The notes under the pieces: model-generated
What the model was told of the DNA's origin: nothing
Database searches by the model: none
The model's input: only the letters and a program-made list of their open reading frames with translations
Position numbers and translations under genes: made by a program
Shown here: positions 14,193-41,734 of the stretch, piece after piece
How the letters are laid out: every line of letters starts with the position of its first letter
Position numbering within the stretch: the first letter of the stretch is position 1
From: Bryobacterales bacterium
Lineage (GTDB): Bacteria > Acidobacteriota > Terriglobia > Bryobacterales > Bryobacteraceae
Assembly: GCA_003166475.1 (NCBI GenBank)
Contig: PMVV01000070.1
Coordinates: 11,293 to 59,184, forward strand
Length of the DNA stretch: 47,892 nucleotides
Direction of reading: 5' to 3'

Positions 14193-15266
14193 ATGAAAAT
14201 CGATATCCGAACCGCCAGCGCAGTCTGGACCCTGACTGTCGCTTTGGGGCTGCACGCGGCCCCGCCCACGCTGCCCGTGCGTGGCTTGCACGTGATGGCG
14301 CCCAAGCCGGACGAGATGGACTTGGCGCTGCGCTTCATTCGCGAAGGGCTTGCGAAGGAGGGCGTGAACACGCTGGTGATGGAATTCGATTATCGCTACC
14401 AGTTCACGCGCAGGCCCGAAGTGATCGACCCGGACGCATTGTCGAAGGACGACGTCAAGAAGATCGCCGCAGCGTGCCGCCAGGCTGGCGTGCGGCTGAT
14501 TCCGCAGATCAACTGTCTCGGGCACCAGTCCTGGGCGGGCACCACGGCCGGGTTACTGCGCGCCCATCCGGAACTGGATGAAACGCCCGGCAAGTACCCG
14601 CAGAACAGCGGGATCTACTGCCGCAGTTATTGCCCGCTGCACCCCAAAGTACATGAGATCGTCTTCGACCTGATCGACGAACTGGCCGAGGTCACCGGGG
14701 CGGATGCCTTTCACGCCGGCATGGACGAAATCTTCTTGCTCGGCGAGGACGATTGCGAGCGCTGCAAAGGCAAGAACAAGGCGGAACTGTTGGCCGGCGA
14801 GGTGAAGGCCCTGCACGACCACCTGGCTCAATCCGGCCGCACGCTGTGGATCTGGGGCGATCGGTTCCTCGATGGAGCCACCACCGGCATGGGAAAGTGG
14901 GAAGCCAGCATGAACGGCACCCAGGATGCAATTCGCATGGTCCCGAAGGACATCGTCATCTGCGACTGGCATTATGAGAGGGTGCTGCCGTCGATCACCT
15001 ATTTCGCCATGGAGGGATTCCCCGTGGTGGCTTGCCCGTGGCGCAAGCCGAACGTGGCTCTGGGCCAGCTTGCCATGGTGCGCGATACACGGGCGCAGGC
15101 GACCAGCGAGATCGGAGATCGCATGCAAGGAGTGTTGCAGTCCACATGGGTTCCATTCGGACCTTTCGCTAGAGCGTATTTTGGGGAACGAACCGGGGAC
15201 ACCGAGGTCCACGAAGCGGTCCAAACCTTTCGGGCGTTGTTTGAAGAACTGCGCGCCAGCCAATGA
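14193..15266 (+). CDS. GH20-like secreted hydrolase, barrel only, three-cysteine type
   Basis: 357 residues with an N-terminal Sec-type signal (about residues 1-23), then a single TIM barrel without the usual GH20 N-terminal domain. The catalytic pair is D178-E179 inside HAGMDE, the classic H-x-G-x-D-E motif of beta-N-acetylhexosaminidases. Three cysteines frame it: C147 in CPLHP, exactly 31 residues before D178, and C188/C191 as CERC. The same arrangement recurs in the proteins at 23066 and 40061 in this window. Other barrel motifs include IPQINCLGHQSW and LWIWGDRF. A role in cleaving N-acetylhexosamine ends is likely but untested for this short form. Between two hairpin arrays and a divergent operon, it appears to be transcribed alone or with the gene upstream. 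Confidence 0.8.
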   Translation: MKIDIRTASAVWTLTVALGLHAAPPTLPVRGLHVMAPKPDEMDLALRFIREGLAKEGVNTLVMEFDYRYQFTRRPEVIDPDALSKDDVKKIAAACRQAGVRLIPQINCLGHQSWAGTTAGLLRAHPELDETPGKYPQNSGIYCRSYCPLHPKVHEIVFDLIDELAEVTGADAFHAGMDEIFLLGEDDCERCKGKNKAELLAGEVKALHDHLAQSGRTLWIWGDRFLDGATTGMGKWEASMNGTQDAIRMVPKDIVICDWHYERVLPSITYFAMEGFPVVACPWRKPNVALGQLAMVRDTRAQATSEIGDRMQGVLQSTWVPFGPFARAYFGERTGDTEVHEAVQTFRALFEELRASQ

Positions 15267-15322
15267 ACGGGCCAGCCCGCCGGGCGGTCCGGCAGTTGCA
15301 GGGACGCCTTCAGCAAGCTCCT

Positions 15323-15371
15323 GTGGGGCAGACCATCGTTTTTTGTGGTCTGCCCGCCTGCGGAGCAGGCG
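15323..15371 (+). repeat. Hairpin array with a TCGTTTTTTG loop
   Basis: Starts with GTGGGGC. A perfect 10-bp stem (15326-15335 with 15346-15355, GGGCAGACCA/TGGTCTGCCC) closes the 10-base loop TCGTTTTTTG. A second hairpin, GCCTGC-GGA-GCAGGC, follows at 15356-15370. The first hairpin is a relative of those at 22985-23014 and 23030-23057. Confidence 0.75.
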
Positions 15372-15538
15372 CTCGCAGTTCTCACCCGGAAGGTGAATCT
15401 GCGGAGCGGTTGAAAGTTGCTGCGCTCAAACGCCTCTCGGGCGACTCAAGGTCCAGAACTGCCGGATTTAGGTTTACAGATTGGCGGTGCGGCCAAGACG
15501 CCATATCCGCACCGGCTGACAAGTGAGTATGACGTTTG
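15372..15538. other. Non-coding stretch between convergent genes with one hairpin
   Basis: No convincing gene. An 8-bp inverted repeat (CGGTGCGG at 15485-15492 with CCGCACCG at 15507-15514, loop 14 bases) is the only structure seen. It may help end transcription between the convergent GH20-like and MFS genes, but there is no T-run. Confidence 0.4.
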
Positions 15539-15624
15539 AGGGGCGGGCAATCCTGCCCGCAGCCGGCTTTTAGTCGGCCAGGAGCCGCCTGAAAGGCGGC
15601 TGCGGCCATGATTGGCCGCCCCAC
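15539..15624 (-). repeat. Intergenic hairpin array, family with GGAGGGCGGGCAA start
   Basis: Consecutive hairpins GCGGGCA-ATCC-TGCCCGC, AGCCGGC/GTCGGCC, AGCCGCC/GGCGGCT and GCGGCCA-TGAT-TGGCCGC, ending in GCCCCAC. It is nearly identical to the array at 25453-25537 and close to 21221-21292. It lies between convergent genes. Confidence 0.8.
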
Positions 15625-15735
15625 GGTGCAACCGAACTGCCATTATTCTATGAGCGGCTATCTGTACGTCCGGTTACGCAATGCCTTGAAAGCGGCTTCT
15701 CCGCGAAAGCTGGAAATGGCGCAGCGTTCCTTCCT

Positions 15736-16998
15736 TCACGAATCTCTGCGATGACCGATGGTCTGGTTCCGGACGAGCGGCCGCGCCCAGAATCCGATGC
15801 CGAGAATCCAGCCGAAGGTGAGATAGAGCAACAGCAGGCCGGCGCGCAGCCCGAAATGGTCGCCGATCTGGCCGATCCAGAGCGGGACGATGGCGCCGCC
15901 AACGATCGCCGTGCAGAGGATCCCGGCGAAAGCGCCGTGTGAATGCGGCAGCGAGTTCAGCGCCAGGGACATGATGACCGGCCACATCACCGAAGCGAAA
16001 AAGCCAATCGCGGGAAAAGCAATCAGGGCAACCGCCGTATTGCCGAAGAGCGCCGCCGTCAGTGCGGCCATCGCACCCAACGAAGCGCCGATCAGCACCT
16101 TGCGGCTGTCCAGGAGTTTCAGCAGCGCGAGGCCCAGAGCACAGCCGATTGTGAGCAGGCCCCAGAACCAGGCCACTTCCATGGCGCCCTTGGTGTGCGG
16201 ATCGACGCGGTGATAGACGGAGAGAAACTCGGAGATCCAATTGGCCGTGCCTTGCTCCGAGCCAACGTAGGCGAAGACGCTGACGAAATAGAGGAGGACG
16301 ACGCGGTTTCCAAATAACCGGGCAGAGAGCCGCCACGAGCCGACGGTCTCCTCGCCGGTGCGCTGAACCGCTGGGAAGCGGAAGAGCGCCACCAGGATGA
16401 GCATGGTCACCGACAGAACCGCGAAGAGCCAATACAACGAGATCCACGGCCAACGCGCCGGCGTCACTGCGGCGAGCAGTGCCAAAGCGCCTGCCTTAAC
16501 GGCGCGCGGGTCCAGTGCGGCGACGAGGTACGCATAGACCTGCGGGCTGACGAACGAAGCCCCGCCGAACAGAAGCTGCGCCAGCGCGCAGTTGAAGGCG
16601 AAGTGCTCCTCGCCCCCGGCCACGCGCAGCAGCGGGTTGATGGCCACCTGCAAAACGGCCATGGCCACACCAATCAGAAAGACCGAAACCAGCGCAGAGG
16701 AGTAGCCCGGCACGCAGGCGACCAGCAACGAGCCGGCGAGGCTCAGCGCAAAAGCGCCCAGGATGACCGGTTTCTCTCCGTGGCGTTCCACCAGCAGTCC
16801 GGCCGGAATCGACATCACGCCGTAGGCGATGAAGAACGAGAAGGGCAGCAGCGCCGCCGCCGACAGGCTCAGCGAGAAGCCCTGAATGACATCCGGGATG
16901 ATCGGCCCCAGGATGTTGGTCAGCAGCGAGATGGCGATGAAGATCAGGAACACCAGCACCGCAACTTGCCGCGAGCGGCCCTGTGGGCGCGGACTCAT
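15736..16998 (-). CDS. MFS sugar permease, fucose/glucose/galactose:H+ symporter-like
   Basis: 420 residues with about 12 hydrophobic segments. Features of the FucP/FGHS-type sugar permeases are visible: SFFIAYGVMSIPAGLLVERHGEK between the second and third segments, and VLQVAINPLLRVAG followed by NCALAQLLFGGASFVSPQ in the middle of the N-half. Likely substrate is a hexose or amino sugar, imported across the inner membrane with protons or sodium. Its ATG overlaps the TGA of the upstream SIS gene (ATGA). It is the last gene of a four-gene operon with a clan-A glycosidase, a ROK kinase and the SIS protein, which points to uptake and phosphorylation of the released sugar. Confidence 0.85.
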   Translation of the reverse strand: MSPRPQGRSRQVAVLVFLIFIAISLLTNILGPIIPDVIQGFSLSLSAAALLPFSFFIAYGVMSIPAGLLVERHGEKPVILGAFALSLAGSLLVACVPGYSSALVSVFLIGVAMAVLQVAINPLLRVAGGEEHFAFNCALAQLLFGGASFVSPQVYAYLVAALDPRAVKAGALALLAAVTPARWPWISLYWLFAVLSVTMLILVALFRFPAVQRTGEETVGSWRLSARLFGNRVVLLYFVSVFAYVGSEQGTANWISEFLSVYHRVDPHTKGAMEVAWFWGLLTIGCALGLALLKLLDSRKVLIGASLGAMAALTAALFGNTAVALIAFPAIGFFASVMWPVIMSLALNSLPHSHGAFAGILCTAIVGGAIVPLWIGQIGDHFGLRAGLLLLYLTFGWILGIGFWARPLVRNQTIGHRRDS

Positions 16999-18086
16999 TC
17001 CACCTCCGTCACTTTGGCGGAGAGTTCAAACCGGCCAGGCTCGCGGCCCTTGATCGCCGCCAGGGCCAACGTCAACATCTGGACGGGCAGGATCTCCATC
17101 AGGGGCCTGATCCGCTCGGCGCATTCCGGGATGCGGAATACGCCCTCGGCCGATGTTGAGACCAGCGTTGAGACCAGCGCCGAGACCAGCGCGCTTCTCC
17201 CTCCGGCTTCCCGAACGTCGGCCACCAGCTTGCGGCTAAACGGGGCCGAGCGGGCGTCGCCTTCCAGCACCAGGACGAAGACCGCGTCGCTGAGCAACTC
17301 GAAGGGACCGTGGCGGAAAGCTGCCGCGCTGAGTCCCTCCGCGGGATAGTGCGTTGACTCCTTCAAAATCAGACCGCCGGTCCCGGCCGCCGCTACCGAG
17401 GCTCCACGCCCGGCCACGAAAATGTGTTCCACGCCTTCCAAAGCCGGCCGGAGTTCGGCCACGTGGGCGGGCCACCGGCCCAGATAGTCGCGCATCGGCT
17501 CAACGGCCGCGCGCGCCTGGTCCAGCAGCAGCGCGCGATCGGTCCCGCACAGCACATCGCCCAACCAGTCGAGCGCCAGCAAGGTTGTCAGATAAGTTTT
17601 GCAGGAGACCGTGGACTCGATGCCAGCGTGCATCAGAAGCGTCGCGGTGCTTTCAGTGGCCAGCGGCGAATCCGCGGTGTTGGTGACGCCGACGATCTCG
17701 GACTGGCCCCTGGCGCATTCCATCAGCCGAACGATCTCCGCACTGCGCCCCGACTGCGAAACGGCGATCACCAGGGTATCCGGGGTCAGCCAGTCCCTCT
17801 CGTAGTGGATCAATTCGCCGGCTTCGACCATCACGGGTGTCACGCCTTCTTTCAACAAGCGCAGGTAAAGTGGGCGGCACGCATAGTAGGAGGAGCCCAT
17901 GCCGGTGAGCACGACGCGCCGCCAGCGCCCGCCGCGCAGTCCGCCAGCCATACGATCCAGCCCACGCTCGTCCGCCAGCCCCGCGATGGTTCGCGCCACC
18001 GCCTCCGGCTGCTCGAGCAGATCGCGCAGGTAAGCGCAGTCGCGCCATTTCAAGGCAAGGTCCACTTCCGTTTCTCCTTTGTCCAT
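16995..18086 (-). CDS. Double SIS-domain sugar-phosphate isomerase/deaminase-like protein (GlmS C-half/AgaS type)
   Basis: 363 residues without signal peptide, with two SIS domains. The first shows GMGSSYYACRPLYLRLL and VSQSGRSAEIVRL, matching the phosphosugar-binding loops of GlmS-type proteins. The second shows FVAGRGASVAAAGTGGLILKE and AAAFRHGPFELL, matching the GlmS E-x..KHGP region. It lacks the glutaminase domain, so it resembles AgaS or FrlB-type deaminases/isomerases that act on imported phosphorylated amino sugars. Residues around 300-315 form a repeated LVS[AT] stretch caused by a 12-bp DNA repeat. It is one base after the ROK kinase gene and overlaps the MFS gene by ATGA. Conversion of an amino-sugar phosphate is the likely role. 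Confidence 0.82.
   Translation of the reverse strand: MDKGETEVDLALKWRDCAYLRDLLEQPEAVARTIAGLADERGLDRMAGGLRGGRWRRVVLTGMGSSYYACRPLYLRLLKEGVTPVMVEAGELIHYERDWLTPDTLVIAVSQSGRSAEIVRLMECARGQSEIVGVTNTADSPLATESTATLLMHAGIESTVSCKTYLTTLLALDWLGDVLCGTDRALLLDQARAAVEPMRDYLGRWPAHVAELRPALEGVEHIFVAGRGASVAAAGTGGLILKESTHYPAEGLSAAAFRHGPFELLSDAVFVLVLEGDARSAPFSRKLVADVREAGGRSALVSALVSTLVSTSAEGVFRIPECAERIRPLMEILPVQMLTLALAAIKGREPGRFELSAKVTEVE
17155..17190 (-). repeat. In-frame 12-bp tandem repeat, three copies
   Basis: Three direct copies on the plus strand, GTTGAGACCAGC twice and then GCCGAGACCAGC. They lie inside the SIS gene and encode a repeated Leu-Val-Ser-(Ala/Thr) unit. The 12-base length keeps the frame, so copy number could vary without breaking the protein. 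Confidence 0.8.
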
Positions 18087-18087
18087 C

Positions 18088-19008
18088 TCAGTTCAGACCC
18101 GCCCGGTGGAACCAGACGCAAGCCGCGCCTAGTAGACCGCTTTGCGCGCCCAGACCGGCCAGCACGATCGACGTGTTCTCCACCGGCACCTGTGTGCAGA
18201 TCCGCTTGACCACGTCCAACGCGGGAGCCAGCAAGAGGTCGGCGCTCCGCATCATGCCGCCGCCGAGCACGATGGTCTGCGGGCAGAATATAGTCACCAG
18301 GTTGGCGAGCCCCAACCCTAGGTAGTGCGCCTCGCGCCGCACGGCCTCGAGCGCCAGCGGATCGCCCTGGCGAGCAAGTTCGCAGATTGCCGCGGCATCC
18401 ATCGGCGCTTCGCACCGCGCACGCATCCACGACTCCATTGCGGGGCCGCTGGCCAGGACTTCCCAACAGCCGTTCGCCCCGCAGTAGCAGGCTGGCCCGC
18501 TGGCGTCGAGTACGTGATGGCCGATCTCCGGGTGCGCGCCGCCGACGCCGCGATAGAGCTTCCCGTCGAGAATCATCCCGACGCCGATGCCCGTGCTGAC
18601 GGTGACGTAGAGCAGGCTGCGGCTGCCGCGGCCCGCGCCCCACGCGGCTTCCCCCAACGCGGCGGCGTCGGCGTCGTTCTCCACCGCCACGCGGACGTCA
18701 AACAGACGCCCCAGATCGGCGGCCAGCGGAGATCCCCGCCAGCCCGGCAAGGTGCCCACCTCGCCATAGACGCCAGTCTCGGGGTCTATCGGGCCGGTGC
18801 TGCCGACTCCAATCCCATCCACACTCAGACCACACTCGTGGAGCAGACGGCGCAGAACGCCACTGGTGCGCGCGAGCCCTGCGGGATAACCCAACTCGGG
18901 AGCCGTCGGCGTCTCTCCCTGCACCAGGATGCAACCTCGCGCATCCACGATGCCTACGGCGATCTTGGTTCCGCCGACGTCAATGGCTGCGGCCACGGGC
19001 CCGCTCAT
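18088..19008 (-). CDS. ROK-family sugar kinase
   Basis: 306 residues from the ATG at 19008, which overlaps the TGA of the upstream glycosidase as ATGA. The frame stays open further upstream, but that part lies inside the neighbour. The N-terminal phosphate-binding motif DVGGTKIAVGIVD, the catalytic Asp in VENDADAAALGE and the ROK zinc site (EIGHH followed by CYCGANGCWE) are all present. It phosphorylates a hexose or N-acetylhexosamine in the cytoplasm with ATP. With the SIS protein and sugar permease it fits a GlcNAc- or glucose-type pathway. The DNA-binding domain of ROK repressors is absent, so it is a kinase and not a regulator. Confidence 0.9.
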   Translation of the reverse strand: MSGPVAAAIDVGGTKIAVGIVDARGCILVQGETPTAPELGYPAGLARTSGVLRRLLHECGLSVDGIGVGSTGPIDPETGVYGEVGTLPGWRGSPLAADLGRLFDVRVAVENDADAAALGEAAWGAGRGSRSLLYVTVSTGIGVGMILDGKLYRGVGGAHPEIGHHVLDASGPACYCGANGCWEVLASGPAMESWMRARCEAPMDAAAICELARQGDPLALEAVRREAHYLGLGLANLVTIFCPQTIVLGGGMMRSADLLLAPALDVVKRICTQVPVENTSIVLAGLGAQSGLLGAACVWFHRAGLN

Positions 19009-21149
19009 TGCGGCAACTCCCGATACTCCACGATCTCGCCGCCAAATGGAGCCATGCGAATCGCAAAAACCTTGCCGTGAAGTTCGAGTGGGGAATCGCC
19101 CTCCGGCTGGACCAGTTGAACGCTGCGCAAGGCCTTGAGGGCCGTGACTGTTACGCTTTGCGCGGCATCGCTGTGGTTGGTGAGCACGACGTAGCCCCGG
19201 CCTGGACCAGTCAACGCGGCGGCCTCCACCTCCGCGCGATCCGAACGGAACAGAGGCTCGACGCCGGCCCACTCCGCCAGCGCCCGGTATACACGATGGG
19301 TGCTGTCCCCATCGTCGAAGGCGGCCGGCACGCGCGAGAGGTACTTCTCAATCGGATAGGCGCAGGTCAACACCTTTCCTTTGCCGAGCGTGTGCGCAAT
19401 CAGCGCGGGATGTCCGCTTTGATCCGTGGCGATCACCTGGCCGTCCCGCGGCTCCAGCAACGCGCCCCAATCGCCAGTGGCGCCCCCACTGGCGAAGGCG
19501 AATTCGTCGCCGGGCTTCAGATCGCCGAACGGCGCTACGACTTTAATGCGGAGATCGTGCGCCGGAATGCGGTCGGCCAGCCGGGCTCCGAACAGTTCTT
19601 CCATCTCGGGGATGGCGCTTTCGCCGTTGAGGGAGACATAGAGCGCGCCGCCGCCGCGCACGTAATCCTTGGCGCGCTGCCAGAAGGTCGTGTGCACGTG
19701 GAGGAGGTTGCGCTTGGAGCTGGTGAGCGGGGACGGCAGCAGCAGCATAGGCAATCGGCTCCAATCGCTCGATTCGCGCGGGAAGCTGGCGCGCAATCCG
19801 GCGCGGCGCGCTAGCACGAAGCTGTTCAGCCAGGTCGCGGCCAGATCGGCGCTCAACTCGCCGTAGTCGGCTCCATCCTGGCCTGCCACCGAGCCAGGCT
19901 CCTGGTCGGAGACATAGGGCACGCCGCCATACTGCGGCAGACCCAGCCCGCGCAGTTCGCCGTAAGGCTTCGACCATTCGAAGGGCACCATGATGCCGGC
20001 CTCGGCGTGGGCGGGTTCGACACCGGTCAGATCCAGCCGGTCAAGGCGCCTGCTGAACCTGCGAAACTCCGTGCCGGCCGGGCGATCGTTGCCATCCCAG
20101 GTGGTCAGGCCGAACTGGGTTTCGTGCGGTGCACGCCTGTACGGAATGCGCTGGTACGTCTGGGGAGCCGCATCGGTAAAACACCAAAGCAGGAAGCCGT
20201 TTGCGCCGCCGCCCAGTGCAGAGTATAGGTTGGCGCGCAAATAGCGCGCGATGCGCTCGGGAGTCTGTTGCGCCGAGGAGGCGCCCATCTCCTGCACCAT
20301 GACGGGCTTGCCCGCGCCGCCGGAGAGTGCCGCTTGGAACGCGGCGGCGTAGGTGGTCCTCTCGGCAAGCAGCGGATCGGGAAACAGCTCCGGGTTGTAG
20401 ACGGGATAGGGATGCACGCTCAGGAAGTCGACCTCTCCCAGGATGTTGTCGGGGCGAAACGGGCCATGACCGATGTCCTGCGCATCGGTTCCCACGACGA
20501 TGGGATGCAGGGTGTCGCTACGCCGGATGGCGCCGGCGATCAGACGGGTCCAGTTGATGGCCATCGCGTCGGTGGTTTTGCCCGCGTTCCAGAACGGAGG
20601 CTCGTCGGTGAGGTCCCAGCTCTGGATGGCCGTCTCGTTCGCGTAACGGCGTCCAAATTCTGCGGCGAGGTTGGTTTCGAGGCGCAGCATTTCCGGATCC
20701 GCATGCGGGTGACGCCCGTTCCGCCACGGCACATCCCAGATCGCTTCGCCGACCTCGTTGCCGATGAACAGGCTGGGTTGCAGATAGATCTCGAAGCGCC
20801 GGGCCAGCTTGATCAGCGCATCGAGTTGAGCGAACGCAGCCGGGTTGTAATCCCCGGGACGAGGCTCGAACCAAGCCCACACCATGTCCAATCGGACGGT
20901 GTTCACGCCCAGTTCGCGCATCTTCCGGAAATCGGCCTCCACACTCGCCGCGTCCCATTCCATGGGCCACTGCATGGCCGCCTTGGCGGGCACCCAATTT
21001 ACGCCCGCGGGGATGAATGGCCGGCCGTTGCGCAGGAAGTAGTTGCCGCTCAGCCGCACCTGGGGCAGCGGCCCCTGCGATGCGGCTGGGGATGGCAGGA
21101 GCACCACCAGCGAACACCAGACAACTGCGAACCAAGAAAGTCTTCGCAT
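19005..21149 (-). CDS. Secreted clan-A glycoside hydrolase (GH5/GH42-like) with C-terminal amidotransferase-fold domain
   Basis: 714 residues with a Sec signal peptide (about residues 1-25). A TIM barrel spans roughly 35-370: an early VNTVRLDMVWAWFEP strand, the putative acid/base E183 in WDLTDEPPFW and the putative nucleophile E287 in VMVQEMGAS, the arrangement of clan GH-A retaining enzymes. Residues of about 400-640 look like the Rossmann-type trimerisation/amidotransferase-like domain found behind GH42-type barrels, followed by a small beta domain. The usual Asn before the acid/base is Asp here. It is the first gene of the operon with ROK kinase, SIS protein and MFS permease, so its product sugar is probably what that operon metabolises. 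Substrate not deducible. Confidence 0.8.
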   Translation of the reverse strand: MRRLSWFAVVWCSLVVLLPSPAASQGPLPQVRLSGNYFLRNGRPFIPAGVNWVPAKAAMQWPMEWDAASVEADFRKMRELGVNTVRLDMVWAWFEPRPGDYNPAAFAQLDALIKLARRFEIYLQPSLFIGNEVGEAIWDVPWRNGRHPHADPEMLRLETNLAAEFGRRYANETAIQSWDLTDEPPFWNAGKTTDAMAINWTRLIAGAIRRSDTLHPIVVGTDAQDIGHGPFRPDNILGEVDFLSVHPYPVYNPELFPDPLLAERTTYAAAFQAALSGGAGKPVMVQEMGASSAQQTPERIARYLRANLYSALGGGANGFLLWCFTDAAPQTYQRIPYRRAPHETQFGLTTWDGNDRPAGTEFRRFSRRLDRLDLTGVEPAHAEAGIMVPFEWSKPYGELRGLGLPQYGGVPYVSDQEPGSVAGQDGADYGELSADLAATWLNSFVLARRAGLRASFPRESSDWSRLPMLLLPSPLTSSKRNLLHVHTTFWQRAKDYVRGGGALYVSLNGESAIPEMEELFGARLADRIPAHDLRIKVVAPFGDLKPGDEFAFASGGATGDWGALLEPRDGQVIATDQSGHPALIAHTLGKGKVLTCAYPIEKYLSRVPAAFDDGDSTHRVYRALAEWAGVEPLFRSDRAEVEAAALTGPGRGYVVLTNHSDAAQSVTVTALKALRSVQLVQPEGDSPLELHGKVFAIRMAPFGGEIVEYRELPQ

Positions 21150-21220
21150 CTTTCTACTTCAACGCCGTGCGCGGCAGTGCGCAAGCGGGGCGGAAACCAA
21201 CTACGCTATCATCCCTCGCT

Positions 21221-21292
21221 TTTGCCCGCAGCCGGCTTTCAGCGGCCCGAGCCGCCTAAAAAGGCGGCTGCGGCCAAGATTGGCCGCCCTCC
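21221..21292 (-). repeat. Intergenic hairpin array between divergent genes
   Basis: Part of the same family as 15539-15624 and 25453-25537: TTTTGCCCGCAGCCGGC at the start, an AGCCGCC/GGCGGCT hairpin and GCGGCCA-AGAT-TGGCCGC, ending in GCCCTCC. It lies between the minus-strand glycosidase and the plus-strand orphan barrel gene. The GTGGGGC end motif is missing. Confidence 0.75.
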
Positions 21293-21419
21293 AAGGGCTA
21301 GGTTACTGTCACCGTATTACGCGAGACTCAAATGCGGCGTCATCCGCAGAGCGGCGTGTGTCAGGGCTTGCGCTCCGACATTGCATACTTGAGACTCTGT
21401 TACGGTAAAGTACTTGCAT

Positions 21420-22976
21420 ATGCGACGACGTGACCTGTTGAAAGCCGTCGCCGTCGCCTCGGCGGGTCGCGAGCTGCGAGCCGATGTGCCGACGCATCTG
21501 TGGGGCGGCTACGATTTCGGACCGGGGCCGCGAGTCACCGGCCGCCTCAACCAAGGCCCCTTCGGCATCGAGCAGGACGAGGGGTGGTTTACGATCGCGG
21601 CGACCACGGCTTCCGAGCGCGCAGTGCCGAACTTCGGTCTCGGCTTGGTCGGCTACACGTGGGAAGAGAGCGGAGCGTCTCTGGCGGTGCGCGCAGGGCG
21701 AGAGGCGCTTGAACGCCATGTGGAAAAAATGGCGAGCCTCCCGTTCGTCGACGTTCTGTACATCCGCTGCGACTGGCGCGATGTGCAAAAACGCCCGGGA
21801 CGATTGGACCTCTCTCCCGTATGGGATCTCACTCTGGACGCCGCCAAGCGGCACGGCCGCCGGGTTGCCTTTCGTGTGATGCTATCGAACACCGTCGGCC
21901 AGCCGCAGTACCTCGCCATGCCCGACTTTGTGCGCGACAAAGTTCCGGTCGTCGAAATCGGCGGCCTCCAAGAGTATGGCGCGTTCAAGTTCCGGGAACC
22001 GCGCTACGACCATCCGGAGTTTCAAAAAGCTTTTCGGGATCTGGTCGAACTGCTGGCTGCGAAGTTCGACGACAACCCCCTCATCGAATGGATCGACTTG
22101 ATGCAGTACGGCTTCTGGGGCGAATCGCATACCGGAGGATTGCCCAATCCGTTTCCGGACTATTTCACCGCTGAACGGACCATGGTGTCCATGACCCAAC
22201 TCCAGCTCGATTCCTTCCGCCGCGCGCAACTGGCCGTGAATACGCAGCCGGACATCAGCAATGTGGGGAACCGGGAAGTCGTCGATATGTGCGGGCGCGC
22301 GGGCGCGTGGCTGCGCACCGACAGCATACTGGTGGAGGAACCGGAACAGATCGAGTCATTCGCCAACCGGCCGGCATGGCTGGCGGCCATCCTGGAAGAT
22401 GGTTACTTCCGCAAGTACGACAGCGCCGCGCCCGGGTATCTGCCGCCGGATCGCGCGGGCGTAAACATGCTCGAGGTTTACATGCTGCACGTTCTCGACG
22501 TGGGTGGCAATTACTGGTCTCTGTGGACCGAGGCCGACAATCTGGCCCGCTATCACGAGCGCTTTCCGCGCGGCTTTACCCGGCTCAGCCAGCGCATTGG
22601 ATATCGCGTGAGGCCGTCTTGGATCTGGCAGCGCAAGCGATATGGGGCAAACGAGTTGGTGGTGGCCTTCGCCAATGACGGAGTGGCGGGAGTGCCGGGC
22701 GTCCTGCGGGTGCATGTGAAAACCCCTGATGGCAGGGCGATCGCCGGAGGCGCGCTCGACGCCGGCCATCCGTACGCAGGCAAGCTACGGCAAGCGGCCT
22801 TCCCGCTGCCCAGAGAACTGGAAGGCCACCCGGTGGATCTGGTCGCAGAGATCGAGACCAAGGGCGGAATTCGCCGCCCAGTGCGGTGGGCCTGTGAGCA
22901 GCCACTGGAGCCGGACGGCGCTTTGCGTGTCGATGTGAAAAAGCAGTCCGACCCGGACTGGCGCAAAGGGATTTGA
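21420..22976 (+). CDS. Tat-exported TIM-barrel protein of unknown function with G-F-W-G-E motif
   Basis: 518 residues from the ATG at 21420 (a TTG two codons earlier is possible). RRRDLLKAVAVASAG is Tat-like. The body looks like a glycosidase TIM barrel: YIRCDWRDVQKRPGRLDL, then RRVAFRVMLSN, and the candidate acid E235 in MQYGFWGESHTGG. A short beta domain closes the C-terminus. The three central motifs align with the protein at 29384-30733 (SVGYWGEGW with E188), so the two are paralogs related to the DUF4832 group. No characterised function is known to me. It is followed by a hairpin array and the GH20 gene on the same strand. Clan-A glycosidase activity is inference. Confidence 0.65.
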   Translation: MRRRDLLKAVAVASAGRELRADVPTHLWGGYDFGPGPRVTGRLNQGPFGIEQDEGWFTIAATTASERAVPNFGLGLVGYTWEESGASLAVRAGREALERHVEKMASLPFVDVLYIRCDWRDVQKRPGRLDLSPVWDLTLDAAKRHGRRVAFRVMLSNTVGQPQYLAMPDFVRDKVPVVEIGGLQEYGAFKFREPRYDHPEFQKAFRDLVELLAAKFDDNPLIEWIDLMQYGFWGESHTGGLPNPFPDYFTAERTMVSMTQLQLDSFRRAQLAVNTQPDISNVGNREVVDMCGRAGAWLRTDSILVEEPEQIESFANRPAWLAAILEDGYFRKYDSAAPGYLPPDRAGVNMLEVYMLHVLDVGGNYWSLWTEADNLARYHERFPRGFTRLSQRIGYRVRPSWIWQRKRYGANELVVAFANDGVAGVPGVLRVHVKTPDGRAIAGGALDAGHPYAGKLRQAAFPLPRELEGHPVDLVAEIETKGGIRRPVRWACEQPLEPDGALRVDVKKQSDPDWRKGI

Positions 22977-22980
22977 ACGC

Positions 22981-23058
22981 CGTGGCGCAGACGATCGTTG
23001 TTTGTCGTCTGCGCACTGTGGTCGAGCTCGGCAGGCCACGAAAAACGATGGCCTACCC
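22981..23058. repeat. Two hairpins with conserved loop and compensated stems
   Basis: The first has a perfect 10-bp stem GCGCAGACGA/TCGTCTGCGC (22985-22994 with 23005-23014) around loop TCGTTGTTTG. The second, in opposite orientation, has GGTAGGCCA/TGGCCTGCC (23057-23049 with 23038-23030 read on the minus strand, one G-U pair) around loop TCGTTTTTCG. Both match the hairpin at 15326-15355 in loop and size. They fill the gap before the GH20 start. Confidence 0.8.
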
Positions 23059-23065: not shown

Positions 23066-25405
23066 ATGAATAAACGTTCCATAGTGCTCCAACTTGTTGT
23101 CATGCTTGCAGCCGCGGGCCTGACGGTCCCGGCATTGGCCGCCGGGGTGCCGCCCATCTTCCCGGCGCCACGCGAATCGTCTGCTGTGGCTGGGGACTTC
23201 GTTCTGGACCAGACCAGCATCATCGCCATCCCGGCCTCTCCCTCGCCGCAGGACTTGTTCCTCGCGCGCCTGCTTGCCGAAGAACTCGGCGACCGCTTCG
23301 ACTTGCACCTGAAGATCGAGCGTCTGGAGCACCTTGAGCCTGCCAGGAAGCTGATCGTCATGGGAGCCTTCTCCAGCCCCTTGGTCGCCGAGTATTGCGC
23401 CGGCCATGCCCTGAAAGTGGATGCCCGCAATCCGGGGCCTGAGGGATACATCCTTCGTACGAGCCCGGAGATCGTCGTCGTGGCGGGCAGCGATGACCGT
23501 GGCGCATTTTACGGGTTGCAGTCGCTGCGCCAGTTGGCCGTGGAGCGCGCCGGGGCCGTGCACTTCGCCGGTTACGACATCCGCGACTGGCCCACAAAAC
23601 CCTTCCGCGGCTTCAAGCTCTACCTGCCGGGGCGCAGCAACATCCCCTTCTTCAAGCGCTTCGTCCGCGACAGTCTGGCGCTCTACAAATACAACACGCT
23701 GATCGTGGAAATGAACGCCTCCATGCGGCTCGAGCGGCACCCCGAACTCAACAGCGCCTGGGTTCGCTTCTCCCGCGAGACCAACTATTGGCGCCGCAAC
23801 TATCCACCCGGCGCGCCGCACGACATCGAAATCAACTCCTCGCACCAGGACACCGCCGATGGCGGCTTTCTTGAGAAAGACGAAGTCGCCGATTTGGCCC
23901 GCTATGTCCGGCAGTTCCACATCGAGTTCGTTCCGGAACTGCCGTCCTTCACGCACAGCTACTACCTTTTGTCGGCGCACCCCGAACTGTCCGAGGTGCC
24001 GGGCGAACTCTGGCCCGACACTTACTGCCCTTCTAATCCCGAGAGCTACAAGCTGCTGTTCGATGTGTACGACGAGTACATCGACCTGTTGAAGCCGCGC
24101 ATGGTGCATGCCGGGCACGACGAGTTGTTCCAGCCGGTCGGCCTTTGCCCCCTCTGCCGCGATAAAGACATTCGCGAACGCTACGGAGAAGACGTGCGCA
24201 AGATCCACGACTACCTTGCCGGCAAGGGCGTCAGGATGGCCATCTGGGGCGACATGCTGCTCGAAGGCGTGCGCGGCGTGGGACTTCAGAAGAAGAAGGC
24301 TCCCGACGGGTTCGCCTACAACGCCCCCGGCGGTATGACGCGCGAACAGGTCGCGAGGCTGATCCCGAAAGACATCCTGATCTTCAACTGGTTCTGGTCC
24401 GCCTCGCCTCCGGAATGGAACGCCAAACAAGCCGAGGGCTTCGAAGCGCAACTCGAAGGAATGGGATTTGAGGAAGTCTACGGCAACTTCACGCCGGGAA
24501 TGGAGAACTTCGGCGCGCGGATACGCCGCAATTCGATTCTCGGCGGCGCACCCTCGGCGTGGTTTGCGACCAACGAAACCGGCTTCGGCAAGGACCTGCT
24601 GGCAGACCTGCTGAGCTGCGCCCAAGCCCTGTGGCGCGGCGACGCAATCGATGGGCGGGATCTCTCCGCTCTCGTCCAGCAGATGGCGCCGGACATCCGC
24701 ATCCGTTTCCGCGGACAGCAGCCGCCCAGCCGGACCGAGCACACTATCGAGCCCGTCTCCATCGCCAACAGCTTCAACGCCAGTTTGACGGAAAAGACCC
24801 TCGGTGTGGATCTGACCGCGATGAACAACAGCACTGTCTCGCTCGGCAATATTCCGTTCGATCTCTCCGGCAGCGCGCACAAGTCGGTCGTCGTCGTGGG
24901 CACTGATGGCACAGGCAAGACCGGACTGCCGAAAGAGTCCGGTGACATCGCCATCGGCCTCGACGCCACCAGCCTGATCTTCCTCCACGCAGCCGCGCGG
25001 CCGGCGACAAACAAGGAATCCTACCGGCTCATCTACGACCCGGACGACACCGCCGACCTGCTCGGTTGGTATGAGGTGGTCTATGCCGATGGATTCGTCA
25101 CCACCATTCCCATCCGCTACGGCGTAAATATTCAGGAGTGGAACTGGGCTGCACGAACCTCGGCCAAGGACTACTGCTACGCCGGCGACCCCATTGCGCT
25201 GGGCGGCGCCGGCGATAAGGCCGTGACCTTCTTTGCCTACGAATGGACAAATCCACGCCTGGGCCAGACCATTGCAAGCGTACGACTCAAGGGCACCACT
25301 GGCTTCCGCGGCGGGGATGCCGATTTCATCAATGGCTTGGGCCCCGTCATCCCGAATAACGCTGTTTATCTGAAGGCCATCAGCGCAGTCAGGAAGCGGG
25401 GGTGA
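23066..25405 (+). CDS. Secreted beta-N-acetylhexosaminidase, GH20, three-cysteine type
   Basis: 779 residues from the ATG at 23066, which starts a Sec signal peptide (NKRSIVLQLVVMLAAAG). The open frame extends upstream only through the hairpin repeat. Residues of about 30-150 form the GH20b N-terminal domain (DRGAFYGLQSLRQL). The barrel begins at IRDWPTKPFRGFKLYLPGRS, with the catalytic D352-E353 in HAGHDE. C321 in CPSNP lies exactly 31 residues before D352, and C361/C364 form CPLC, as in the proteins at 14193 and 40061. A beta-rich C-terminal region (about 580-779) may bind carbohydrate. The enzyme removes terminal GlcNAc/GalNAc by substrate-assisted catalysis. Its product would suit the ROK/SIS/MFS operon on the opposite strand. 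Confidence 0.87.
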   Translation: MNKRSIVLQLVVMLAAAGLTVPALAAGVPPIFPAPRESSAVAGDFVLDQTSIIAIPASPSPQDLFLARLLAEELGDRFDLHLKIERLEHLEPARKLIVMGAFSSPLVAEYCAGHALKVDARNPGPEGYILRTSPEIVVVAGSDDRGAFYGLQSLRQLAVERAGAVHFAGYDIRDWPTKPFRGFKLYLPGRSNIPFFKRFVRDSLALYKYNTLIVEMNASMRLERHPELNSAWVRFSRETNYWRRNYPPGAPHDIEINSSHQDTADGGFLEKDEVADLARYVRQFHIEFVPELPSFTHSYYLLSAHPELSEVPGELWPDTYCPSNPESYKLLFDVYDEYIDLLKPRMVHAGHDELFQPVGLCPLCRDKDIRERYGEDVRKIHDYLAGKGVRMAIWGDMLLEGVRGVGLQKKKAPDGFAYNAPGGMTREQVARLIPKDILIFNWFWSASPPEWNAKQAEGFEAQLEGMGFEEVYGNFTPGMENFGARIRRNSILGGAPSAWFATNETGFGKDLLADLLSCAQALWRGDAIDGRDLSALVQQMAPDIRIRFRGQQPPSRTEHTIEPVSIANSFNASLTEKTLGVDLTAMNNSTVSLGNIPFDLSGSAHKSVVVVGTDGTGKTGLPKESGDIAIGLDATSLIFLHAAARPATNKESYRLIYDPDDTADLLGWYEVVYADGFVTTIPIRYGVNIQEWNWAARTSAKDYCYAGDPIALGGAGDKAVTFFAYEWTNPRLGQTIASVRLKGTTGFRGGDADFINGLGPVIPNNAVYLKAISAVRKRG

Positions 25406-27094: not shown

Positions 27095-29089
27095 CTATTG
27101 CGGGTGGCGTTTGACTGTTCCGGCCGAGCCCGCGGTGCCGGCGCGATGTCTTCGTTCTGGAGGCGCGGCGATGGTCCTCAAATGGTCCACAAAGTCAAGG
27201 TCCTTTTGGATGCCCTCGATCATCGCAGGGTCTGTTGTCAGGGAAAGGGCACGGCGCAGATCCTGCTCGGCCGACCCTAGGAATCTCCTGCAATCCTCCC
27301 AAGCTCGCCGCTTGGTTTGAGCAGGCAGATCCTTCCGCTTGCCGGTCTGGGTACAATGCTTCGCCTGTCCGATGAAAGCGTTCCCTCGAATTCGGAGGAT
27401 TGATGCGTTGTTCTTCAAGTCGGCATGCTCCTCCATTTGCGTTTTGAGGAACTTGAGCACAGATGAATCGTCACCGGATCTACTCAAGCCGATAGCGACT
27501 TGACGAACTTCGCGCTCGGCGATGCGCCCCTTGGATGCCTCGAGGTACAGTCGCCTCGCGAGGGAAAGGTCTTCGCGGGACGGTGTATCTGCGAGGGTTA
27601 GCGCGTCCGCCAGTTGAGTGAGGACCAGTGGCGGAAGGCTGCTAAGCTGACCTTCGTGTTTGGCGAGAAACTCACGTACGAGACCCGCCGAGTTCAATGC
27701 CCGCTGCACTTCGGCGAATAACTGAATGGTGCGTAGGTTCATTGAGTCTTGCGCAAGCAGGCCGAGGACAGCTTTCTGCGCACGCTCAAATTCGCCCAAG
27801 GATATCGCTTCTTCGATGGAGCGATGTTCTCGTGCTAGGGCGTGCCGAGGATGCGCGGGAAGTATGCAGACAACTCGCACCTCATTTACCTGGAATTGAG
27901 GAGGAGGGCAGCCCTCCTCCCGCATGGAGCGTAATATGGTTGGAATGCCTTGCCCCTCAGCCTGAGCCAGCTGAAGCCGGCTTAGGAACCAGGCAAGGCT
28001 TTGATTCCTCCACTTTGCTGGCGCGCGTCCCTGCCGGAGTTCCTCGACGGAAATGCCAGTCGGAACAGAACCCGGCGAAAGAACCTCGACCCGATCAGAG
28101 AACACGGTTATTCGCGCCGGCTCGACGATCTCGTAATCTCTGTGGGCCAGAGCATTGATTGTTGCTTCATGTAGCGCCTGCGGTGGATACTTCACGGCAT
28201 TCGGCGCTGCACGATTGGTCTTGTCGAATGCGACATAGGATTGGACATCAAGCAACTCAATCAAGCGGCGGGCTTGGTCTATTAAAGTACCAGCGAGTTC
28301 ACTTCGCTCCGCATGCGGTTCAGAACGGTCGACGCCGGGGTATACAGAGAACAGCGAGTAAGCACCGCTAATATGAGTCTGCACGTTGCGCCCGAACAGA
28401 AGCATTGCAAAATTGCGGGGTTTCAGGTTTCCCGTGAGGGCTTCTCGAACGCAAAGAGGTGGAACAAATGGACTCAAGGATTTACTTTCCGACACATATT
28501 CATCTATTCCTCGATCCGGATGAAACACACCCATGCGCTGGAGGGCATCCCGAAGCGCCAGCAAGTCAAGATCATTGATCGTCGCTGTGGCACAGACACG
28601 CCTATCCCACTCTTCCTGTACTCCTTTCCGAACTAGGAGCTCTCTAAGGATGCCATTCCTTGCTTCTCGCGTTTCTCGACTAATTCGGACATAGTATTTG
28701 CCTGCTTGCTCTCGTCGGCGAAATAGATGCGCTGAACGGGTTGACGGCATGATGAACACCAATACGCGCCGATCGGGGCTTTCCGCGGGTAGTTCTTCAA
28801 CGAGCGGAGCGATTGATGGCGATACACGATCTCTACAAGCCGTCAGGACCTTGCCTTCCACTTCCTTCAACCGCGCCGCAGACAGGCCAACGATGGCGAC
28901 TTGAGGAAATCCGTGCTCGTCCTTTTCCTCTCTGGCGCCGCAGGCCACGTATCCCCCACCAAGATTAGACCAATCATTGGCAAAGGCCGAGAGGGTCTCC
29001 GCGACGTCATCGGGATCGGCAACATTCTCTTTCCATTCGACTTGATCGCTCTCCCTCACAGAAAGCGTCTTGAGATCAAGCTGTTCCAT
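27095..29089 (-). CDS. AlbA_2/Schlafen-type putative DNA/RNA-binding ATPase-like regulator
   Basis: 664 residues from the ATG at 29089 (a TTG at 29110 is also possible). The N-terminal domain shows the AlbA_2/Schlafen signature ESDQVEWKENV and a glycine-rich ANDWSNLGGGYVACG. The middle part (about 290-420) resembles the C-terminal HATPase-like domain of COG2865 proteins (LHEATINALAHRDYE, GQGIPTILRSM). Residues beyond about 430 look like helical repeats. Such proteins are described as transcriptional regulators or as parts of defence systems; neither role is shown here. A sampled line of the gene has about 53% G+C against over 60% in the neighbours, and the gene has no link to sugar use, so it is probably an acquired insert. 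No signal peptide. Confidence 0.75.
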   Translation of the reverse strand: MEQLDLKTLSVRESDQVEWKENVADPDDVAETLSAFANDWSNLGGGYVACGAREEKDEHGFPQVAIVGLSAARLKEVEGKVLTACRDRVSPSIAPLVEELPAESPDRRVLVFIMPSTRSAHLFRRREQAGKYYVRISRETREARNGILRELLVRKGVQEEWDRRVCATATINDLDLLALRDALQRMGVFHPDRGIDEYVSESKSLSPFVPPLCVREALTGNLKPRNFAMLLFGRNVQTHISGAYSLFSVYPGVDRSEPHAERSELAGTLIDQARRLIELLDVQSYVAFDKTNRAAPNAVKYPPQALHEATINALAHRDYEIVEPARITVFSDRVEVLSPGSVPTGISVEELRQGRAPAKWRNQSLAWFLSRLQLAQAEGQGIPTILRSMREEGCPPPQFQVNEVRVVCILPAHPRHALAREHRSIEEAISLGEFERAQKAVLGLLAQDSMNLRTIQLFAEVQRALNSAGLVREFLAKHEGQLSSLPPLVLTQLADALTLADTPSREDLSLARRLYLEASKGRIAEREVRQVAIGLSRSGDDSSVLKFLKTQMEEHADLKNNASILRIRGNAFIGQAKHCTQTGKRKDLPAQTKRRAWEDCRRFLGSAEQDLRRALSLTTDPAMIEGIQKDLDFVDHLRTIAAPPERRHRAGTAGSAGTVKRHPQ

Positions 29090-29210
29090 TATGAAGTCCA
29101 CACATCGCAATATCGAATAACGAGGGGCCTTTCACTCCTAGTATGGCACTACTTTGGATCATGCTCGCCCCAACTTGAGCCGGCGGCACCCCGAGTTCAG
29201 GGCATGCCAC

Positions 29211-32989: not shown

Positions 32990-33020
32990 AACTTGTTTCT
33001 TGGCATGAGCGGCAACCGGC

Positions 33021-34485: not shown

Positions 34486-37400
34486 ATGAAGCGTAGACTG
34501 TACTCGCTTTCGGTGCTTTTGATTGCGCTCCTGTGCTTGGCCGCTTCGGCTTTCGCACAGGGCGATCGCGGCAGCATCACAGGCCAAATCACGGACGCCA
34601 CCGGCGCTGTGGTTCCCAATGTAGAAGTAACGGCCACGCATTTGACAACCAACACTGTTTCCAAGGCCGTCAGCACGTCGTCCGGCGTGTACCACATTGA
34701 ATACTTGCAGCCCGGCGATTACAGGATCTCGGCCGGCTTGTCGGGATTCAAGACCGCGGTCGTGGGGCCGGTGACGGTCTCCGTGGCGTCGGTTGTGACG
34801 GCGGACATAAAATTGCAACTGGGCGCCGCCACCGAGAGCATCACCGTGAGCGCCGATGCCCCCAGGTTGGAATCGTCCAGCTCGGAACTCGGCTACAGCG
34901 TCTCCGCCACGGATTACCACGAGTGGGCGATCAGCAGCGACGACGACGGCCAACGCCAGATTGGAAACTTCATCTTCAATGTTCTGCCAGGGACCGCCGG
35001 CGATACGTACCTGGGTAGCATCAACGGCTCACCCACCGGCTCGCACGAGGTCTACATCGAAGGCATCTCGATCGGGCGCGCCGACATCTCCGGCAGCTCG
35101 TCCGAGTTCCAACCCAGCGTGGACGCCATCAGCGAATTCCGCCTGCAAACCGGAAGTCTGAATGCATCCTACGGCGGCGGCTTGACCGCGGTTGCGAACT
35201 ACAACGTCAAGTCCGGCACCAATGAACTGCACGGCACCGCCTACGAGTATTTCATCAACGACGACCTGGACGCCAACACCTTCGATAACAATGCTTTGGG
35301 CGCCGCGAAGTCGCCGTTCAAGCAAAACAGCTTCGGCACCGCCGTAGGGGGCCCACTCTGGGTGCCAAAGGTGTATAACGGCAAGAACCGGAGCTTCTGG
35401 TTTTTCAGTTACGAAGGCGACCGCAAGCGCAATGGCCAGATTAGCGGGTATCGGACGGTGCCTACCGCGGCCTTCAAGACGGGCGATTTCTCGGCGCTGC
35501 CCCAGGCGATCTTCGACCCCAGCAGCACCGTCCAAAATCCGGATGGCAGCGCTTCGCGCACTCCTTTTCCCGGAAACATCATTCCTTCGACCGACATCAG
35601 CACCGTCTCGGCGAATATGATCAAGCTGGCGCCGACCCCGGACCCGACTCTGCCGGGCTTTGTCAACAACCTCCGCGGAATTAGCAACCAACCGGTATTC
35701 GACCTGAACACCTACACCGGGAAATTCGACCAGACCATCACCGATAAGCAGAAGTTGTCGTTCTACTGGAGCGACAACGCCCGGATTCGTTATAACGGCG
35801 GCGGCAAGGGATATGCGCCGGTGCCGGGAGACGGCAGCTCGACTTTTGCCTTGCAGTCCGTTTACGGCACGATGATCCGTCTCGGGTATGACTGGACCAT
35901 CACTCCGACCCTGCTCAACCACTTCGCCGGCGGCTACAACAACTTCGACAACGACCACGTATCCTCCTCGTACGGCCAGAATTGGCCGACCAAGCTCAGC
36001 CTGAACGGTGTCCAGGATCTCACGTTCCCGGACGTCACTTTCAGCGGGACAACCGCGCAAGGCGGCTCCATCACCCAGATGGGGAACAACACTTACGGTG
36101 ACTCGCCGAACGGCAGCTACATCTTTGCCAACGACACCACCTGGATACACGGCGCCCACGCGATCAAGTGGGGCGTTGAGGTCCGGAAGTACTTCTACGT
36201 TGAGCCCTGGAACTCGGGCGCCTCGGGCAGCTTCAGCTTCCGTGCCGCCGAGACTGCCGACCCGAACAATCTGGGCACTACCGGCTATTCATTTGCCAGT
36301 TTCATGTTGGGTGACGTGGGCAGTGCCAGTCTGCCCGTGCAGTACATCAAGACCACCAAGACCGATACCTGGAACCCCGCCTTTTACGTGGCCGACGACT
36401 GGAAGGTGAGCAAACGTCTCACGCTCAATCTCGGCTTGCGCTGGGACATCGTAGGAGGGGAATTTGAAACTCACGGCATCTCCTCAACCTTCAGCCCCAC
36501 CACGGCCAATCCTGGCGCCGGAGGCTACCCCGGGGCGTTGACTTTCCTGAGCGATACGGGCCGCAAGTCCTGGCAGAATACTTATTACGGCGAGTTCGGC
36601 CCGCGTGCCGGGTTCGCTTATGCACTCAGCCAGAAATTCGTGTTGCGTGGCGGCTACGGTCTGATGTATTCGCCGCCGATTGCCAATTCCTTTGGAGAGG
36701 CCACCGTCGACGGCTACAACGGCAACAACGCCTTCGCTCCCACAGTCATGAATTCGGTGTTTAACTGGGATGGCGGCTATCCGGCTTATTCGTTTGCGCT
36801 GCCGGATAAGGATCCGACGCTGGATAACGGAAGCTCTATCTCATACACCGGCCGAAACTCGGCCAAGCAACCCTACGCGCAAAACTACACCTTTGGCATT
36901 CAGTACCTGCTCAAGCAATCGACGGTCATCCAGGCCAACTACGTCGGCGACCGGGGCAGCCGGTTGAGCGCGGGCAACTTCGCGAACATGAACCAGCTCA
37001 ATCCGAACTACCTGTCCCTGGGCGATACGCTGCTGAACAACTGCGGGCCGACATCCTGCGCCCCAAATATCCCGCTGCCCTACGCCGGCTTTTCTGGCAC
37101 CGTCGCACAAGCCCTGCTGCCCTATCCGCAATACGCGGGCGGCGGGGTGGTCAATCACTTCGCCTATGTCGGGAAATCCAGCTACAACGCGCTGCAAGTG
37201 ATGGCCACGCACCGCCTCAACAAAGGGCTCGGGTTCGTGATCAGCTATGCGTTCCAGAAGACCCTCACTAACACCGATAGCGCCAACATCTACTACGGCG
37301 GAACTTCCCAGGACGTTTATAACCGGGGGCTGGAGAAATCGGTGGCGGCCTTCGACCATCCCCAGCAATTGCGTCTGACCTGGATTTACGAGTTACCCTT

Positions 37401-37956: not shown

Positions 37957-37976
37957 TTGCGCGTCAAATGCGTTGA

Positions 37977-38018
37977 GCGGAGCGCGTCCCCACAGGGGCG
38001 CGTTCCGCCTTTTCTTTT
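37977..38018 (+). terminator. Strong intrinsic terminator after the TonB receptor
   Basis: A 14-bp stem, GCGGAGCGCG-(T)-CCCC with GGGGCGCGTTCCGC (37977-37991 with 37995-38008), has one bulged T, one G-T pair and an ACA loop. It is followed directly by CTTTTCTTTT. It separates the receptor from the sulfatase-like gene 22 bases further on. Confidence 0.88.
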
Positions 38019-38039
38019 CGGATGTATCCTTAGGTATCC

Positions 38040-40064: not shown

Positions 40065-41734
40065 TGAAAAGAATTCTCGCTATTCTTGCGCTGCTGGCCA
40101 TTGGCGGCGCGCTGTTCGCCTGGGCCGGCAAGAAGATCTATCCCGACCGCTGGGTCTATGTGAGCCGGTCCTTTGGTTCGGACCGCGATGTGGAAGACAT
40201 ACGGAATATCGCACGCACCGCGTCGGAGCACGGTCTGACCGGCATCGTTTTGGCGGGCATGGACCGGATCAGCCTGGGCACGCCCGCATACTATGACCGG
40301 CTGAAGCAGGTGAAGGAAATAGCAGACAGCGATCGTCTCGAGATCGTCCCAATGGGATTCGGCACCGGCTACGGTGGCGCGATCCTGAGCCACGACAAGA
40401 ATCTGGCCGAGGGCATGCTCGTGAAAGGCGCGCTATTCGTGGCCGGCCAAACCGAGGCACGCTTCCACGCCGATTCGCCCGCGCGGCTGCTCAATGGCGG
40501 CTTTGAAGAATTCAGCGGCAACACCATCAAGCACTTTTCGACCCAGGACCAGCCGGGCGTAAAAACATTTGTGGACACCCATGTTTTCCACTCGGGAAAG
40601 GCGTCCTTGCGAATCGAAAACTTCGGCGGCGCCCAAGAAGAGAACGTGCGCCTGGCGCAGCAGATCCGGGTCACGCCGAACCGGTGCTATCGCGTCCGGG
40701 CCTGGGTGAAGACGGAAGGCGCGGCGCCGGCATCGCTGTTCAGTATCAAGGCCTATACGGCGGACCATCGCGACCTGAGCCCTTTCGAGCCGCGCCTCGG
40801 CGCCACATCGGATTGGACGCAGGTCTCGACGGCGTTCAATAGCTGGTATGCCGACCGCATCGATCTGAACGTCGGCGTTTTCGAAGGGCTCGCAGGCAAG
40901 GTCTGGGTTGACGACGTGGAACTGGAAGAAGTTGGCCTGACGAATGTAATCCGCCGCGACGGCGCACCACTGGAGGTGCGCGACGACAAGACCCAAACCG
41001 TGTACCAGGACGGCCGCGACTTCGCTGCGATATCGGATCCCTTACTGGATTTCAAATGGACCCACGAGATGCCAGTCATTCACCTGCTGCCGGGCGGTCG
41101 AATTCGGAGCGGCACGCGGCTGCGAGTGGACTATTATCACGGCACCACCATTTACAACGACCAGGTTTCGGCATGTCCCTCCGAACCGAAGGTTTACGAG
41201 ATCTGGAAACAGCAGTTTCCGCTCATCGAAAAGTACTTCGCGCCCAAGCGCTACTTTCTTTCCGTGGATGAGGTCCGGTTGTTCAACCGCTGCGACCGGT
41301 GCCGGCGGCGGCACATGGCAGCCGCGGCCATCTTGGGAGACACGATTACAAGTTTGTATGGCCAGATACGCGCCGTCAATCCCACGGCCGAGGTGCTGGT
41401 GTGGTCCGATATGTTCGACCCAAATCACAACTCCAAGTCACAGTATTACCTGGTGGACGGCGCATTGACCGACACCTGGGAATACCTGCCCAAGGATGTC
41501 GGAGTAGTTTGCTGGTACTACGAAAAGCGGCGCGAAAGCCTGGAATTCTTTTCGTCGCGCGGATTCAAAACCATTGCGGGCGCGTACTATGACGCCGACG
41601 ACTTAAAGAACCCCGAAGGCTGGCTGGAGGCCCTGGACGCCGTTCCGGGGGCGGCCGGCATCATGTACACTACTTGGTCGGACAAATACGAGCTGTTGCC
41701 AGGATTTGGCGATCTGGTTTCGCGGCGGCGGTGA
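40061..41734 (+). CDS. GH20-like protein with carbohydrate-binding domain inserted in the barrel
   Basis: 557 residues with an N-terminal membrane segment or uncleaved signal (about 4-22). The barrel starts at about 30 and is interrupted after the third strand (LEIVPMGFGTGYGG, aligning with IPQINCLGHQSW of the protein at 14193). A CBM4/9-like sandwich follows (about 143-291; LLNGGFEEF to VWVDDVELEEV), then another beta stretch (to about 365), and then the barrel resumes. The catalytic pair D403-E404 is kept in FLSVDEV, but the H-x-G of H-x-G-x-D-E is lost. C372 in CPSEP is exactly 31 residues before D403, and C411/C414 form CDRC. The start overlaps the TPR-lipoprotein stop. Catalysis by this form is uncertain. 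Confidence 0.65.
   Translation: MMKRILAILALLAIGGALFAWAGKKIYPDRWVYVSRSFGSDRDVEDIRNIARTASEHGLTGIVLAGMDRISLGTPAYYDRLKQVKEIADSDRLEIVPMGFGTGYGGAILSHDKNLAEGMLVKGALFVAGQTEARFHADSPARLLNGGFEEFSGNTIKHFSTQDQPGVKTFVDTHVFHSGKASLRIENFGGAQEENVRLAQQIRVTPNRCYRVRAWVKTEGAAPASLFSIKAYTADHRDLSPFEPRLGATSDWTQVSTAFNSWYADRIDLNVGVFEGLAGKVWVDDVELEEVGLTNVIRRDGAPLEVRDDKTQTVYQDGRDFAAISDPLLDFKWTHEMPVIHLLPGGRIRSGTRLRVDYYHGTTIYNDQVSACPSEPKVYEIWKQQFPLIEKYFAPKRYFLSVDEVRLFNRCDRCRRRHMAAAAILGDTITSLYGQIRAVNPTAEVLVWSDMFDPNHNSKSQYYLVDGALTDTWEYLPKDVGVVCWYYEKRRESLEFFSSRGFKTIAGAYYDADDLKNPEGWLEALDAVPGAAGIMYTTWSDKYELLPGFGDLVSRRR

Follow-up and report, generated by a model that had tools for sequence, protein, structure and literature searches.

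Three proteins encoded by a stretch of DNA from a Bryobacterales bacterium, 47,892 nucleotides long and referred to here as the window, carry three cysteines around a catalytic Asp-Glu pair of the type found in the GH20 glycoside hydrolases. An earlier note on this DNA proposed that these cysteines form a zinc site or a disulfide close to the active site, that such a site had not been noted in classical GH20 enzymes and that the cysteines may delineate a separate subfamily. The question raised by this locus is what the three cysteines are: the signature of a particular lineage, or an element of the GH20 catalytic domain with a role of its own.

Three cysteines around the catalytic pair

The proteins, designated P1, P2 and P3, and the residues of interest are as follows.

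14193..15266, + strand: P1, exported GH20 protein with a single catalytic barrel, 357 aa (PF00728 E 4e-12; near 8bal and 9fyl/9fym)
14619-14621, + strand: P1 C143, a fourth Cys close by, kept in the P1 family
14631..14633, + strand: P1 C147, 31 residues before D178
14724..14729, + strand: P1 catalytic pair D178-E179, aligned with the GH20 D-E of 8bal and 9fyl
14754..14765, + strand: P1 C188-x-x-C191
23066..25405, + strand: P2, exported protein combining GH20b and GH20 domains with an undefined C-terminal part, 779 aa (PF02838 E 1e-17; PF00728 E 1e-11)
24026..24028, + strand: P2 C321
24119..24124, + strand: P2 catalytic pair D352-E353
24146..24157, + strand: P2 C361-x-x-C364
40061..41734, + strand: P3, exported protein with a predicted GH20 fold and a CBM4_9-like module inside the barrel (about residues 128-300), 557 aa (AlphaFold model, VIA-align, PF02018)
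41174..41176, + strand: P3 C372
41267..41272, + strand: P3 catalytic pair D403-E404, unchanged in 29 relatives
41291..41302, + strand: P3 C411-x-x-C414

Rereading of the sequences bore out the motif as first described, including its residue numbers. In each protein, a Cys that begins a C-P-x-x-P lies exactly 31 residues before the catalytic Asp, and a CxxC starts 9 (P1), 8 (P2) or 7 (P3) residues past the Glu. The adjacent Asp-Glu after strand 4, which characterizes GH20, is present in all three. P1 and P2 score above the PF00728 gathering cut-off of 22.3 bits in a Pfam search (46.5 and 45.2 bits, respectively). Among solved GH20 enzymes, P1 is a near homologue of 8bal (E 3.7e-83) and 9fym (E 2.5e-75), which the structure list gives as Niako3494 and, for 9fyl/9fym, Treponema denticola lacto-N-biosidase; the triad and C143 are all conserved in these enzymes. 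They consist of a single domain, whereas P2 adds a GH20b domain and a C-terminal part and P3 an inserted CBM. The reading of P2 was taken to begin at the ATG at 23066. Its predicted model has a mean pLDDT of 65.5 and is poor past about residue 445; it was for this reason used solely to read the succession of helices and strands, with no fold search. Residues 540-779 of P2, approximately, combine a poor model with no Pfam match. Two other proteins of about 500 aa without Pfam match (window 12669-14114 and 21414-22976) are each encoded immediately upstream of a GH20 gene.

When all six frames of the window were scanned with a looser version of the motif, the sites of P1, P2 and P3 were the only ones retrieved. 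When the cysteines of each protein were placed at random in 200,000 trials, the motif fell at the catalytic position 7 times for P1, never for P2 and once for P3, and the probability that chance produced this placement is negligible. The common spacing of 31 residues results instead from common descent, since the motif stretches are homologous: hhalign matched the profile of P3 to that of P2/P1 (98.2%, E 3.7e-14), and the cysteines coincide in this alignment. This distance belongs to the fold, that is, to the distance spanned by helix 3 and strand 4, rather than to the cysteines, because enzymes devoid of the triad retain the position 31 residues before the Asp and fill it with D or N. The CPxxP context is not general, as most P3 relatives read CMSEP or a CLTDP-like sequence. 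The loop differs in length and the CxxC of P3 was consequently misplaced by a single global alignment; the CxxC was therefore scored by its offset from the Glu.

Occurrence of the triad in GH20 enzymes

The idea that classical GH20 enzymes are devoid of the motif is contradicted by several of them. The source genome contains two further GH20 genes. The first, L001, encodes a textbook GH20 enzyme (PF00728 E 2e-116) with a full triad, Cys 31 residues before the Asp and CxxC 9 past the Glu, in a region reading NAFCPGN...HIGGDECFKGFWKACAKC; the second, L002, is equally classical, has a D at -31 and lacks the CxxC. The triad is also found at matching spacing in the solved enzymes BT0459 (6q63), Niako3494 (8bal) and T. 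denticola lacto-N-biosidase (9fyl/9fym). Neither the -31 Cys nor the CxxC is present in 7cbn and 3rcn. BT0459 is a classical beta-hexosaminidase from Bacteroides in which the -31 Cys, the D-E pair and a CxxC 9 residues past the Glu align in register with those of the window proteins (DDVLCAGND...HVGGDECPKVRWEKCPKC). It differs from them by a fourth Cys, in PELxC, and by the classical HxGGDE, where the window proteins have HAGMDE, HAGHDE and LSVDE.

A sample of 58 GH20 genes was retrieved with PF00728 from the phylum of the window and 30 genomes belonging to other lineages. The full triad was observed in 23 of these genes, the -31 Cys alone in 10, neither element in 25 and a CxxC without the -31 Cys in none. 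The triad is present in 16/48 of the sampled enzymes with the classical H-x-G-[GA]-D-E, and such shares are only rough because the samples consist of best-scoring matches. In a wider set, the corresponding counts were 116 full triads, 11 cases of the -31 Cys alone, 30 sequences with neither and 4 with a CxxC lacking the -31 Cys; all four of the latter have an Asp at -31. Over both sets, a CxxC was thus found only together with Cys or Asp at -31. The earlier note had added that its proposal would fall if the cysteines were ordinary residues conserved in all GH20 members; the outcome comes close to this, although they are conserved in many members, not in all.

Candidate roles of the cysteines

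In the model of P3, C372 is located just ahead of a helix (376-393) followed by a strand (397-400), and C411 ahead of a helix at 412-416; the order of helices and strands in the P2 model matches that of P3. On these models, the cysteines sit at the barrel top, adjoining the catalytic pair. The triad is best read, with a probability estimated at 0.68, as an old structural element that bacterial GH20 catalytic domains may or may not carry and that forms a putative structural metal site. The -31 Cys would occupy the loop after barrel strand 3, immediately ahead of helix 3, and the CxxC the loop after strand 4, immediately beyond the catalytic Asp-Glu. These two loops would meet at the barrel top, where the three thiols and a fourth ligand could hold a metal ion, most likely zinc. 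The fourth ligand would vary by subfamily, being the PELxC Cys in classical enzymes and Cys143 in proteins of the P1 type. The metal would stiffen the loops around the active site and leave the chemistry to the usual substrate-assisted Asp-Glu mechanism of GH20; it would play no catalytic part itself, because many active GH20 enzymes lack the triad.

This proposal draws on the pattern of substitutions in the P3 family, where 85 of 94 members carry the triad. In this set, Asp occupies -31 in three members and replaces the first Cys of the CxxC in three, and two members lose all three cysteines. Across the family, Asp stands for the -31 Cys in L094, L129, L132 and L164, and within the CxxC in L101, L102 and L104, the other two cysteines being kept in every case; the joint loss concerns L119 and L121. 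Swaps from Cys to Asp at two positions, together with joint loss, are more in keeping with metal ligands than with a disulfide. The fourth Cys, in PELxC, is carried by 16 of the 17 classical enzymes with a full triad, and the P1 family has C143, so that the origin of the fourth ligand may differ from group to group. A search by column conservation found no fourth ligand common to all four groups, nor one in P2 or P3. At least three cysteines are conserved in a coupled fashion with substitutions of the metal type, even if the test on phylogenetically independent pairs is small: among 7 such pairs on well supported branches, both traits changed jointly in 2 to 4 (p about 0.25, not significant). 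The linkage between the CxxC and the -31 Cys is partly phylogenetic. Metal data for Am2136 (PMC9673926) were considered as a match and rejected, since they concern another binding region. The open-licence literature searched yielded no account of a cysteine or zinc site for 8bal, 9fyl or 6q63, an absence which says little. The records consulted likewise showed no metal, which counts against this reading.

Disulfides are common in exported proteins, which counts against a metal, and P1, P2 and P3 all have signal-peptide-like N-termini as judged from their sequences. The cysteines could accordingly form a disulfide, either between the -31 Cys and one Cys of the CxxC or inside the CxxC, tying the strand-3 and strand-4 loops as in human HEXB. 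In this enzyme, the disulfide Cys309-Cys360 brackets the catalytic Asp354-Glu355 and is the only disulfide that the compared eukaryotic enzymes have in common (PMC2492878). Judged by residue numbering, the cysteines before and after its Asp-Glu tie the two loops seen here, and the tying of these loops is therefore a known theme. HEXB nevertheless differs in having two cysteines, at -45 and E+5, engaged in a proven disulfide, and not a -31 Cys with a CxxC. Six classical enzymes retain just two of the cysteines, PELxC and -31, with no CxxC, and would also fit a disulfide between those two. However, the conserved cysteines are odd in number in P2 and P3, and a disulfide accommodates poorly the single swaps to Asp at -31 (4 sequences) and in the CxxC (3 sequences) in which the two remaining cysteines persist. 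A disulfide is on balance an unlikely reading, albeit one to be taken seriously. The initial suggestion of a metal site or a disulfide near the active site is thus likely to hold in its general form, given the barrel-top position, the linkage between CxxC and -31 and the analogy with HEXB; its restriction to non-classical enzymes is what had to be abandoned.

It is very unlikely that the motif sets apart a GH20 subfamily of its own, comprising P1, P2 and P3. A quick tree was built from 113 GH20 catalytic regions. The triad label undergoes 13 changes on this tree, at least 7 of them forced by well supported branches, counts which are only indicative because the alignment includes the columns of the trait itself, some branches are long and the deep split is weak. 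P1, P2 and P3 each belong to a separate, well supported clade, with L001 on the opposite side of the tree. The three families do share one weakly supported side (SH-aLRT 76), and P1 and P2 match 9fyl/8bal better than other solved GH20 enzymes. Nevertheless, L001, BT0459 and other classical H-x-GGDE enzymes carry the triad, and members without it are found within the P1 and P3 clades (L048, L119, L121). The triad is an ordinary recurrent element of bacterial GH20 and not a clade marker; it should not serve to define a GH20 clade, and the subfamily claim is corrected here. As for a role of the metal or the thiols in catalysis or redox control, it is scarcely credible, as nothing but the location beside the catalytic pair speaks for it, whereas the triad is often lost with this pair intact (25/58 genes) and well studied enzymes such as 3rcn and 7cbn do without it. 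If the structural metal is real, GH20 assays performed with EDTA or heavy metals should allow for it, as should attempts to engineer BT0459 and other classical enzymes.

The P3 family and the gene neighbourhood

The catalytic part of P3 escapes the current Pfam and NCBIfam models. Its sole domain match is CBM4_9 (PF02018 E 4e-8, residues 143-260), with no catalytic match in Pfam or NCBIfam, and PF00728 fails to match 29 out of 29 family members; PF02018 matches 16 of the 29 relatives. Using phmmer, the C-terminal part of P3 was nevertheless related to 9fyl (E 1.5e-6). The AlphaFold model of P3 has a mean pLDDT of 91.9, and its nearest solved folds by VIA-align are 8bal and 9fyl/9fym (Z 26.9-28.3), the superposition with 9fyl giving a Z of 28.3 and an rmsd of 2.6 over 277 residues; all 50 matches listed are GH20. 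On the evidence of this model, P3 is a (beta/alpha)8 barrel protein belonging to GH20 by its fold. The CBM-like module (about residues 128-300) is placed between the early and the later barrel strands in the sequence; it matches CBM4_9, yet sits within the barrel sequence and not at an end.

One scan, with search patterns that excluded the triad, detected 557 relatives of P3. The family, to which relatives L094-L121 and L123-L202 belong, extends over Acidobacteriota, Planctomycetota, Verrucomicrobiota, Armatimonadota and further phyla, and the catalytic D-E is invariant in the 29 relatives compared. A broader proposal can be put forward only tentatively, its chances being somewhat less than even: P3 would represent a large undescribed family of GH20-fold glycoside hydrolases, spread over several phyla, with a CBM4_9-like insert in the barrel and a nearly universal cysteine cluster, and this cluster would constitute a structural metal site that is common in GH20 but has gone unreported. 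Because Pfam and NCBIfam miss the catalytic part of P3 in hundreds of genomes, counts of hexosaminidases in soil and sediment bacteria may be too low.

The start of the P3 gene overlaps the stop of an upstream sulfatase gene. Between positions 34486 and 44203 of the window, genes for a TonB-type outer-membrane protein, a sulfatase with TPR repeats, P3 and a GH2 protein follow one another in one direction, an arrangement resembling a polysaccharide-use locus. A functional link of P3 with the sulfatase, the GH2 protein or the TonB receptor was considered and rejected, as these are neighbours in 8, 1 and 5 of 80 relatives, respectively, and the association is not conserved. Other carbohydrate enzymes of the window are GH42-like (19008-21149), an alpha-L-fucosidase (9089-10777), pectate-lyase-like (2414-5350) and MGH1-like (60-2411). 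Adjacent genes encode SIS-domain and ROK-family proteins (16998-19272) and an MFS transporter (15739-16998), a combination which suggests amino-sugar uptake and use. A protein with a Schlafen AlbA_2 domain (27098-29110) is also encoded amid these sugar genes.
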